Assembly: GCA_020060185.1 (NCBI GenBank)
Contig: JAGVAS010000121.1
Location: 1 to 39,310, forward strand
From: Desulfovibrio sp.
GTDB taxonomy: Bacteria > Bacillota > Dethiobacteria > DTU022 > UBA8154
Length of the DNA stretch: 39,310 nucleotides
Reading direction: 5' to 3'
Positions 96 through 30,369 of the stretch are shown one piece after another. Below the pieces are notes generated by a model. It was given only the letters and a program-made list of their open reading frames with translations, was not told where the DNA came from and did not search any database. The position numbers and the translations under genes are program-made. Position 1 is the first letter of the stretch. Every line of letters starts with the position of its first letter.

Positions 96-290
96 ACAAC
101 TTGTGCAGCGAAGCTAAAAGCTCACGTTGAAGCGAAGGTTGGAGATGGCCCTGCCGGCATGGAAGCCGGCAGCCGGGAGGTGAGTAGGATTCGAACTCTC
201 CCGGGAAGGTCATCGTAGACTCAAGCTGAAACGTAGAGCTTTCAGAGCGGAACTCGATAGCGAACCAACCTTCGCCACCCCATTTTCATA
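96..290 (+). repeat. Dispersed structured repeat copy R1
   Basis: Shares ACTTGTGCAGCGAAGC.., GATGGCC..GGTCATC basal stem (144-150/208-214), hairpin CTGCCGGC-ATGGAA-GCCGGCAG (151-172), second hairpin CCGGGAG..CTCCCGG (173-204) and 3' end CCAACCTTCGCCACCCCATTTTCATA with other copies; abuts mcp stop codon. Confidence 0.85.
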
Positions 291-10830: not shown

Positions 10831-10912
10831 TTACCAGCTCCCCTTTTTTCTTTATATACTAACATAAAACAACAATTTTCGAAAGAAAGATAGGGTAAAA
10901 TGTTAAGAAAAT

Positions 10913-11070
10913 CCTGGGCGGGCATGGAAGCCCGCCACAGGACAGCGAACATGGAAGTGAGCTCTGCCGGGTAGACCAATCAAAAGCCGGAGCTTAAGCT
11001 GTAAAACCTGTCTCAAGCGAACCCGTTAGCGAATCAGCCGCCACCAGCAAAACGCTGCGTCTATTCTCAT
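10913..11070 (+). repeat. Dispersed structured repeat copy R2 (5'-truncated)
   Basis: Hairpin CCTGGGCGGGC-ATGGAA-GCCCGCC-A-CAGG; GGACAGCGAACATGGAAGTGAGCTCTGCCGGGTAG..AGCTTAAGCTGTAAAACCTGTCTCAAGCGAACC nearly identical to R4; ends CTATTCTCATA at the flgG stop. Confidence 0.8.
11038..11062. repeat. 25-bp inverted repeat, left arm (partner 12809-12833)
   Basis: CCGCCACCAGCAAAACGCTGCGTCT; reverse complement matches AGACGCAGCGTTTTGCTGGTGGTGG at 24/25. Confidence 0.85.
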
Positions 11071-12835: not shown

Positions 12836-13078
12836 TGACTTGTGCAGCGAGGAAACAAGTTCACTGCGAAACGAGAGCTGAAGACGACCCAGCTGACAGG
12901 ATGTCAGCTGCCGGTGATGACCATGGACGGGAATTCCGCCGGGGAGGTCGTCGGAAGCTCGAGATGAGTAGTAGAACTTGGGCGAGAACCCGGAACTCCG
13001 CTAACAGCAAACGCTGCTCATATAACCTGTCTGTGCGAACCCTTAAGCGAGCACCAACCTTCGCCACCCATTTTCATA
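12835..13078 (+). repeat. Dispersed structured repeat copy R3
   Basis: GTGACTTGTGCAGCGAGG..; GACGACC(12883-12889)/GGTCGTC(12946-12952); hairpin CAGCTGACA-GGA-TGTCAGCTG (12890-12910); 3' end GCGAGCACCAACCTTCGCCACCCATTTTCATA. Confidence 0.85.
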
Positions 13079-19279: not shown

Positions 19280-19494
19280 GTTGTGGCGAGCGAAATGTGC
19301 AGCACAGCAAACAGGTTCAGCGAAGCGACGGCCTTAAGATGGCCCGGCGGACATGGAGGTCCGCCGCCGGACAGCGCGAACATGGAGGTGAGCTCTGCCG
19401 GGTAGGCCAATCGAAGGCCTGAGCTTAAGCTGTAAAACCTGTCTCAAGCGAACCTTGGAGCGAGCACCAACCTTCGCCACCTCATTTTCATATT
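19280..19494 (+). repeat. Dispersed structured repeat copy R4
   Basis: GATGGCC(19338-19344)/GGCCAATC(19405-19412); hairpin CGGCGGAC-ATGGAG-GTCCGCCG (19345-19366); 3' end GCGAGCACCAACCTTCGCCACCTCATTTTCATA. Confidence 0.85.
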
Positions 19495-19516
19495 AACCGC
19501 CACGACCCTACTGGTC

Positions 19517-19600
19517 ACAACAATGGATGAAAATGACCGGGTTTAGATCCCGCGATTTTTCTATAGACGAAGCAGCAAACGCTGCGCTATTTTCATATTA
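19517..19600 (+). repeat. Satellite module M2 copy a
   Basis: CAACAATGGATGAAAATGACCGGGTTTAGATCCCGC.. shared with 12763-12799; ends with small hairpin GCAGCAAACGCTGC and CTATTTTCATATTA. Confidence 0.75.
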
Positions 19601-26358: not shown

Positions 26359-26573
26359 GGTGGCGAAAGGTGGCGAGCGACTTGTGCAGCGAAGCAAAAA
26401 GTTCACGGTGAAGCGAGGGCTGAAGACGACCCTGCCGGCTGGATGCCGGCAGCCTGCCTTTGACTATGGACGAGAATTTGGCCGGGTAGGTCGTCGGAGG
26501 CCTGAGCTGAACCGTAGAACGATCTCAAGCGGAACTCGGAGCGAGCACCAACCTTTCGCCACCCCATTTTCAT
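26359..26573 (+). repeat. Dispersed structured repeat copy R5 (most complete)
   Basis: Closing stem GGTGGCGAAAGGTGG (26359-26373)/CCAACCTTTCGCCACC (26548-26563); GACGACC(26425-26431)/GGTCGTC(26489-26495); hairpin CTGCCGGC-TGGAT-GCCGGCAG (26432-26452); ends CATTTTCATA next to the flgE stop. Confidence 0.88.
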
Positions 26574-28836: not shown

Positions 28837-30369
28837 TTATACGAGATAATCCACTCTTCTTTTCTCTCCCCACAGTTCAAGGGATAAACCCTGCGTTTCC
28901 CCCGTCACAGCATCTCCTGAACGTGCATCTGCAAAAGAAGACAGATCGCCTGCCCGGTAACCTTTGGCAAAAGCGAAGCCCTGCCGTCCCTCATCCCTTA
29001 CGAAGACCTGGAAACGTTCGACGTCGAGATTCACCTGTTGGAAGCGCTGCCGTAGCGTTTCCATCTGGCTCTCCAGCAGTTCCTTTATGGCTGCATGCTG
29101 GGTGATGATCTCCCCGGACAGAATACCCTTCATGCGGCGTACGCGAATGAGCACCTCTCCCAGGAACTCAGGCTGCAGCTTGAGGCGCAATTCCTGTTCA
29201 CCGGGCCTTGCCAGGTAGTTAACCCGTTCCACAATCTGCTCCATAATCTCCCGGGAGTACAGCTGTGGATCTCTCAGAACCTGCAGGCCGGAATAAAAAG
29301 GAGTGTTTCCTTCCAGCGCTGCTTTAAAGTTCCCGCTTGAGGACAAAAGAGCTTCTCCGTCCTCACTGGGTAAAAAAGGGTAACGGTTTCCCTGCCCCAT
29401 AGCAATATCCTTATCCTGTTTCCCTATGGAGCTTTCCGCTGCAGGGACTGCCTCCTCTCCCTCTTTTACGTCCAGGTAGGATCTTAAAAAATTTTCAACC
29501 CGGGACAGGAAGGAAGCCGGGGGTATGTGACGAGTCTCATTTTCGGGCAAAACCAGCATGCCGGCAGGATGGTCCTGCAGTTCCCCGAGTATGTCAGGAT
29601 GAAGCTCTTGCAGCGGTTTTCCCTGCTGCAGGTAGGAAAAAGCAAGTGCCCTGGCCTGCGGGGTCAAGCTACCCTGATCGTCCACCAGTGGAATCCGCCC
29701 GTAGAGCAGCTGTTTTTCCAATCCATGGATTTCCTGCTGCGCCTGTTTCCCCGCCTCTTGCGCCTGTTTCCCCGCCTCTAAAAAAGAAAGGCGGCTTTTT
29801 CCGGGCAAACGTGGAGACAGCTCTGCAGGAATATTATCCTGATCGCTGGCAGGAATATCTTGCCGATCGCTGGCAGGAATATCACCCAGATCGCTGGCAG
29901 GAATATCACCCAGTTCATTAAAATGAAATTTCCCGCCTTCCCCGGGAAGTTGTTCCTCCGGGATATTTGTTTCTACTGCTGTTTTTTCCGGTACAAACTG
30001 CAACTCTTCCCCCCCGCCTGCAGGCTCTTCCGCGGGCTGTATGGCCTCGTAGGGCTCAGTCTCCGGCAGGCACTGCTGCAAAGAGTCCCCGGGCTCCTGT
30101 TCCGGAAGCTTAACCCCTTCCCCTGGTGGCTCCACATTAGGCGGGCTGAAGAAACCGGGCATCCCCGGGTTAGAGGTAAATTTTTCCCGGAAAAAGTTTT
30201 CAGGTTTTTTTTCCTCAATATCCCGGGGTAAAGAAGCGGAAGAAGACTTCTCAGAAAATATTCCTTTCAACATGCCGGAAAAATCCTCCCCGGTTTTTAT
30301 GGAAAATCGACCGGTGACGGTTGGGCCGTCTTGCCCGGAGACTGCAGAGGGGAATATTTCTACTCTCAA
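28837..30369 (-). CDS. fliK: Flagellar hook-length control protein FliK
   Basis: C-terminal LARPGEQELRLKLQPEFLGEVLIRVRRMKGILSGEIITQHAAIKELLESQMETLRQRFQ; low-complexity N-terminal region. Confidence 0.9.
   Translation of the reverse strand: MRVEIFPSAVSGQDGPTVTGRFSIKTGEDFSGMLKGIFSEKSSSASLPRDIEEKKPENFFREKFTSNPGMPGFFSPPNVEPPGEGVKLPEQEPGDSLQQCLPETEPYEAIQPAEEPAGGGEELQFVPEKTAVETNIPEEQLPGEGGKFHFNELGDIPASDLGDIPASDRQDIPASDQDNIPAELSPRLPGKSRLSFLEAGKQAQEAGKQAQQEIHGLEKQLLYGRIPLVDDQGSLTPQARALAFSYLQQGKPLQELHPDILGELQDHPAGMLVLPENETRHIPPASFLSRVENFLRSYLDVKEGEEAVPAAESSIGKQDKDIAMGQGNRYPFLPSEDGEALLSSSGNFKAALEGNTPFYSGLQVLRDPQLYSREIMEQIVERVNYLARPGEQELRLKLQPEFLGEVLIRVRRMKGILSGEIITQHAAIKELLESQMETLRQRFQQVNLDVERFQVFVRDEGRQGFAFAKGYRAGDLSSFADARSGDAVTGETQGLSLELWGEKRRVDYLV
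29739..29779 (-). repeat. 21-bp tandem duplication in fliK (EAGKQAQ x2)
   Basis: gcctgtttccccgcctcttgc repeated nearly perfectly; protein EAGKQAQEAGKQAQQE. Confidence 0.85.
29827..29913 (-). repeat. 24-bp minisatellite in fliK (DIPASDxx repeats)
   Basis: (gatcgctggcaggaatatc...)n on + strand; protein GDIPASDLGDIPASDRQDIPASDQDNIPAE. Confidence 0.85.

Follow-up and report, generated by a model that had tools for sequence, protein, structure and literature searches.

A dispersed fold-back repeat of Dethiobacteria with a TwoAYGGAY-like core and near-invariant GGA loops

Main finding

The five structured repeats (R1 to R5) located in the window, which denotes the whole 39,310-nt stretch of DNA analysed (contig JAGVAS010000121.1 of assembly GCA_020060185.1, deposited as Desulfovibrio sp. 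and placed by GTDB in the Dethiobacteria), belong to a dispersed repeat whose multiplication is recent and took place separately from lineage to lineage. The fold shared by these copies is maintained by selection or an equivalent process. An earlier note on this DNA had read compensatory changes among the five copies as a sign of selection on structure rather than only recent duplication. The first half of that statement holds, as covariation exceeds a phylogeny-preserving null even when the alignment ignores the structure and the loop GGA is invariant; the opposition does not, because the copies form a dispersed repeat with recent, lineage-wise multiplication and the constraint is concentrated on the internal branches of their tree. 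Duplication and structural selection both apply. It is very likely that R1 to R5 represent a mobile repeat with a selected fold that is related to the TwoAYGGAY motif, and the fuller explanation, in which a mobile repeat of Dethiobacteria, non-autonomous and non-coding, has a TwoAYGGAY-like core and a possible link to the regulator CsrA, is assigned a probability of roughly 0.6.

Structure of the copies in the window

R1 to R5 all fit a single fold composed of a long stem, an enclosing stem and two hairpins. The parts of R1 and the cores of the remaining copies are as follows (all on the plus strand where a strand is given).

About 99-293: R1, whole repeat
114-242, plus: R1, folded core; 141.4 bits to the covariance model, one of its 22 seed sequences
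118-128 (118-123 and 125-128), plus: R1, 5' arm of the outer stem; partners 230-233 and 236-241, covarying pairs of helix 1
230-241, plus: R1, 3' arm of the outer stem; covariation
144-150, plus: R1, 5' arm of the enclosing stem (GATGGCC); pair 145-213 significant in the structure-blind test
208-214, plus: R1, 3' arm of the enclosing stem (GGTCATC), pairing with 144-150
151-172, plus: R1, hairpin 1; loop ATGGAA at 159-164, GGA at 161-163
173-204, plus: R1, hairpin 2; GGA at 187-189, tandem G.A mismatch at 182-183/193-194
10882-11003, plus: R2, degraded core; 42.4 bits, E=5e-9; site empty in the sister genome G002
12853-12980, plus: R3, core; 126.8 bits, seed sequence; site empty in G002
19308-19442, plus: R4, core of a second subfamily; 104.8 bits, seed sequence; site empty in G003 and G002
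19496-19600, plus: core-less unit limited to the outer ends, immediately downstream of R4, flanked on both sides by TTTTCATATTA
26395-26523, plus: R5, core; 128.8 bits, seed sequence; site empty in G003

The apical stems that the earlier note had described for R1 to R5 are all paired as written, including GGCGGGC/GCCCGCC in R2, and the same is true of the enclosing stems (GATGGCC/GGTCATC in R1, GACGACC/GGTCGTC in R3 and R5, GATGGCC/GGCC-A-ATC in R4) and of the adjacent hairpin, CCGGGAG/CTCCCGG in R1 (173-179 and 198-204) and CCGG.CAG/CTG.CCGG in R4. Two other descriptions require amendment. Pairing had been placed at 144-214, where pairs do form, but in R1 it reaches from about 118 to 241; and a loop close to ATGGAA is indeed seen in R1, but the invariant element is the GGA in the loops of both hairpins. 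Hairpin 1 of R1 is formed by CTGCCGGC (151-158) and GCCGGCAG (165-172). R2 is missing most of the 5' half, though it retains both GGA hairpins, and scores 42 bits compared with 105-141 for the others, and the subfamily of R4 occupies several dozen more places in this genome and in G003. The cores of R1, R3, R4 and R5 fold with energies 5.8-6.9 standard deviations below those of dinucleotide shuffles (z = -6.4 for R1), and the minus strand of R1 folds worse than the plus strand (-51.1 versus -65.2 kcal/mol).

Stem letters vary freely while the loop GGA stays near-invariant, being present in hairpin 1 of 170 of the 174 copies compared, in hairpin 2 of 162 and in both hairpins of 159. The loop consensus CANGGANG is matched by hairpin 1 in 95/174 copies and by hairpin 2 in 106/174, and the loop of hairpin 1 is often one base shorter (CAGGANG). 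The second loop of R1 reads TAGGATT, hence it is not a strict AYGGAY, and a gap of 23 nt separates the two GGA motifs of this copy.

Several minor features accompany the fold. Hairpin 2 carries a tandem G.A mismatch in all copies, which is swapped for Watson-Crick pairs in some of them, and tandem G.A pairs have been reported for TwoAYGGAY as well (PMC4333381). The 3' part of R3 contains about 50 additional bases (approximately 12981-13030) with an end-like GCTAACAGCAAACGCTGC, which suggests a composite or nested copy. A resemblance of R1 to a tRNA-like T-arm near 188-203 was dismissed as chance, being missing from the other copies.

Covariation

Chance is ruled out on several grounds. In a set of 22 diverse copies, standard pairs fill 92.4% of pair cells, double changes occur in 25 of the 38 pairs, and the covariation score of 0.476 stands above those of the shuffles (0.222) and of the slid controls (0.096 at most), the latter being no proof on their own since the structure came from such sequences. 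A script resembling R-scape (an independent implementation; R-scape itself was not used) was therefore written, in which a G-test with average-product correction is set against a null that replays the substitutions of each branch of a FastTree tree at random columns. With a model-guided alignment of 117 copies, nine of 7875 column pairs are significant (E<0.05) and all nine belong to the structure; when the test is restricted to structure pairs, 20 of 38 pass. When 113 copies are aligned with MAFFT, blind to the structure, seven pairs are significant, each of them structural, and the top 11 pairs are likewise all structural. In the coordinates of R1, pairs 152-171 and 155-168 of hairpin 1 rank within the top three of this blind test, and 178-199, 180-196, 181-195 and 184-192 of hairpin 2 are significant. 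The check that the earlier note had proposed, an R-scape analysis with additional copies, accordingly yielded covariation above the phylogenetic expectation, as judged by the R-scape-like script.

Selection is further supported because invariant GGA loops could not be created by duplication or by hairpin repair. Moreover, G.T mispairs exceed A.C mispairs (220 versus 80, or 158 versus 80 when one doubtful pair is removed), an excess that identifies the plus strand as the structured one, be it as RNA or as single-stranded DNA.

Copy number, insertion sites and element ends

The covariance model recovers 75 matches in the examined stretches of this genome, a few places being counted twice, which corresponds to about 70 copies, a minimum given that the draft (2.47 Mb, 200 contigs) is incomplete; a BLAST search places R1 among at least 45 sites. 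Within the class, 32 of the 98 genomes searched with the model, representing 18 of its 49 genera, contain the core, several of them harbouring at least 20 copies, and an exact core pattern occurs in named relatives including Dethiobacter sp. SURF_39; viral contigs gave no match to one exact core pattern. The copies are mostly intergenic, most of them overlapping no open reading frame of 90 codons or more, and their orientation relative to flanking genes is approximately random (31 -/-, 22 +/+, 17 -/+ and 14 +/- among 84 copies that have a gene on each side). The five copies of the window are situated within a cluster of flagellar and chemotaxis genes, and each runs antisense to the flagellar genes. 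Inspection by eye placed one copy from another genome (L066 of G016) upstream of, and in the same orientation as, a gene with a SpoVAD-like product.

The flagellar clusters of G002 and G003 are otherwise collinear with the window, but their matching intergenic regions lack R2, R3 and R4 in the first genome and R4 and R5 in the second. These regions are too diverged to define an exact empty-site junction, and no target duplication could be discerned.

In this genome, full copies start with ACCGCCACGACCC and finish with TTTTCATATTA, without plain inverted ends. Because TTTTCATATTA also stands before many copies, tandem units are possible. Elsewhere, the ends as judged by eye are complementary yet lineage-specific (CACTACAGC... 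in G020, TGTAGACAAAG... in the TwoAYGGAY copies of G214). The core is common to the lineages and the ends are not. A search for Y1 and IscB families revealed no transposase linked to the repeat. Y1 transposases are present in relatives, and BLAST of the element against the surroundings of Y1 genes returned nothing; Y1 loci were rejected as a partner, having no ends in common with the repeat. As a separate observation, full copies (L011 at approximately 1395-1500 and others) possess a 5' module, GGATGAAAATG, complementary to the 3'-end ATTTTCAT, an arrangement that may recall the pairing of guide and cleavage site in IS200/IS605 elements.

Constraint on the tree of copies

The distribution of changes over the tree indicates when the fold is under constraint. 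In the tree of 174 copies, internal branches account for 3 changes in GGA columns and terminal branches for 23, compared with 352 and 456, respectively, in the remaining unpaired columns (p=0.0009). Of the changes in paired columns, the share that breaks the pair rises from 28% internally to 43% terminally (p=1e-5), and the share of double changes falls from 49% to 23% (p=5e-13). These p-values assume independent changes, which is not strictly true, and the contrast rests on parsimony over a tree built from the same short sequences. Some constraint persists on terminal branches. A one-genome subset test, small in size (29 and 21 private changes), gave private changes per column in the R1 subfamily of 0.38 for paired and 0.40 for unpaired positions at an 80% threshold, and 0.20 and 0.32 at 85%, rarely compensated; in the R4 subfamily, 6 of 27 private changes are compensated. 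Constraint is strongest in lineages that kept multiplying and weaker in single copies. Compensatory changes therefore arose mostly in spreading lineages, and covariation is no proof that any single copy, R1 included, works in place.

Relation to TwoAYGGAY and other known systems

An Rfam scan of the window returned nothing at curated cut-offs, and the TwoAYGGAY model (RF01731) gave no hit in the window copies or in 15 copies from relatives. Against its gathering threshold of 43 bits, a diverged copy of the same genome (L088) reaches 40.0 bits (E=3e-4) and L042 reaches 25.4 bits. In the reciprocal direction, the covariance model, built without RF01731 members, matches 18 places in 40 TwoAYGGAY stretches, some of which overlap one another, with a best E of 2e-14. 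Besides this mutual detection by the two models, the repeat resembles TwoAYGGAY (Weinberg et al. 2010, PMC2864571) in having two adjacent hairpins with AYGGAY-type loops within a long stem and in being multi-copy, as that motif is in many Bacillota genomes. It differs in that its best copy stays below the threshold, many of its hairpin-1 loops are shorter by one base and its outer ends are lineage-specific. Judged from these sequence comparisons, the core is a divergent relative of TwoAYGGAY and not a member by the Rfam criterion.

Hits to TwoAYGGAY (E<=0.001) occur in 52 of 399 sampled Bacillota genomes, often several in each. In the several Bacillota genomes inspected, bona fide copies are 80-95% identical per genome over 170-310 nt, and some have complementary ends. 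In G214, certain bona fide copies (L306-L309) lie beside or between the arms of terminator-like inverted repeats. No mention of repeats or mobility was found in passages of open full-text papers that name the motif, subscription literature lying outside the search, and the view of TwoAYGGAY as a mobile repeat may be new.

Other systems share particular traits with the repeat. Like the CsrB/RsmZ class of small RNAs and the flaA leader sponge, it displays GGA in hairpin loops, the CANGGANG consensus and a pair of sites spaced by about 20 nt; unlike the CsrB/RsmZ class, it has two sites per unit instead of many, is dispersed rather than a single gene, and is known here from sequence. With MITEs, REPINs and palindromic intergenic repeats it has in common a short, non-coding, fold-back and intergenic nature, near-identical copies and insertion differences between species, whereas a central folded module with conserved loops, common to genera and families while the ends vary, sets it apart. 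HEARO/IscB and IS605-associated RNAs are likewise structured RNAs inside mobile elements; an assignment to HEARO/IscB omega RNA was rejected, since Rfam returned no match and an IscB-type RRXRR protein is absent from the genome.

CsrA as a candidate partner

TwoAYGGAY has been proposed to bind CsrA on the basis of its loop motif (PMC4333381), GGA being the motif on which this regulator docks. The CANGGANG consensus is cited as the high-affinity CsrA loop, and the spacing of GGA motifs for CsrA dimers is 21 nt in the flaA leader, with a stated optimum of 18 nt (PMC6692469, PMC4894983). At the sequence level, the repeat presents GGA in loops with this consensus, and the 23-nt gap of R1 is close to both values. 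Among the 399 Bacillota genomes, csrA occurs in 48 of the 52 with TwoAYGGAY hits compared with 244 of the 347 others (70%; p=0.0004, uncorrected for relatedness). Within the Dethiobacteria, the association between csrA and the repeat is not significant (10/19 versus 7/21, p=0.34), and csrA was not found in G028, G030 and G033, which are 92-96% complete, despite hits of the model.

The draft assembly of this genome lacks csrA, which is present in G002-G004. In G003 and G004, a three-gene ABC transporter is followed by csrA; in the present genome the same transporter adjoins fliW, and the edge of contig C169 falls inside its ATPase gene. Because that edge lies within the transporter that adjoins csrA in G003 and G004, the gene probably falls in an assembly gap, and its absence was dropped as evidence against CsrA once traced to the contig end. 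CsrA is a good candidate for the partner of the GGA loops, and the chance that it is the actual partner is put slightly below even.

Proposed mechanism and alternative explanations

The plus strand would form, when single, a long stem around two adjacent hairpins whose loop GGAs stand about 23 nt apart, and this folded strand would be needed when the element multiplies or is active. The two GGA hairpins may bind a CsrA-type dimer, most likely within the transcript of active copies, so that the element would act as a dispersed titrator of CsrA or control itself through CsrA. Most copies would decay following insertion.

An unlikely alternative is a MITE- or REPIN-like DNA element in which the fold serves solely for recognition of the single-stranded DNA by a trans-acting transposase, the GGA being a protein contact and no RNA function existing. 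Complementary ends that differ by lineage (G020, G214), core-less units consisting of ends, constraint that is strongest during propagation and the Y1 transposases of relatives all agree with it. Recognition of ends by a transposase would, however, predict the opposite of what is observed, namely a core that stays while the ends vary; BLAST of the element against loci around Y1 genes revealed no linked transposase, and the match to the CsrA loop consensus and the association with csrA would be left unexplained. A purely mutational origin, in which imperfect palindromes are perfected without selection, is very improbable. Long inverted repeats are corrected by template switching or intrastrand repair, and 23% of the paired-column changes are double even on terminal branches, as such a process would allow. 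It predicts equal action on all branches, though double changes are twice as common internally (p=5e-13), and it could neither keep the loop GGA nor favour G.T over A.C mispairs.

Somewhat less probable than the DNA-only element is the possibility that the copies are independent small-RNA genes serving in place as CsrA sponges, their multiplicity reflecting dosage and not selfish spread. Such a role was put forward for TwoAYGGAY (PMC4333381) and agrees with the loop consensus, the spacing and the co-occurrence with csrA. Pairs and GGA loops are nevertheless lost after insertion and the sets of sites differ among sister species, against which the redundancy of about 70 copies could relax selection on each. 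A cis-acting leader or attenuator of adjacent flagellar genes is the least probable reading of all: five copies do lie within the flagellar and chemotaxis cluster, and flagellin mRNAs are under CsrA control in other bacteria, but each copy runs antisense to the flagellar genes, orientation across the genome is random, neighbours are diverse, and R2-R5 are missing at the same sites in sister species. The preferred explanation remains the mobile repeat with a TwoAYGGAY-like core and a possible CsrA link.

Implications

To our knowledge, no function has been established for TwoAYGGAY since 2010, one motif-based proposal concerning CsrA aside, and we know of few RNA antagonists of CsrA in these bacteria. 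The present analysis adds that TwoAYGGAY members and their close relatives are dispersed fold-back repeats multiplying per lineage, and that, in the clade studied, spreading lineages keep the GGA loops while individual copies decay. The meaning of the window shifts from five functional structures to a mobile TwoAYGGAY-like module that keeps its two-hairpin GGA fold while spreading. It also carries a caution, as repeats in a genome can covary because of selection acting while they propagate, and individual copies need not be functional. If CsrA is the partner, a mobile element would carry sites for a global post-transcriptional regulator. A broader and more doubtful proposal, offered tentatively, is that TwoAYGGAY RNAs are widespread mobile fold-back elements of Bacillota with a paired CsrA-binding module rather than ordinary small-RNA genes, so that selfish repeats would seed CsrA sites or exploit CsrA for their own control.

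Other repeats

A second short palindromic repeat, GGGGACACACCTCTTGCAGAGGAATGTCCCC, was observed within or beside elements in three species (L214, L217, L219 and L221 in G009; L200 and L203 in G020; L014 in the present genome, G000). In the window, a 24-nt repeat in three to four tandem copies lies at 29825-29912, within a 510-codon open reading frame of the flagellar cluster.
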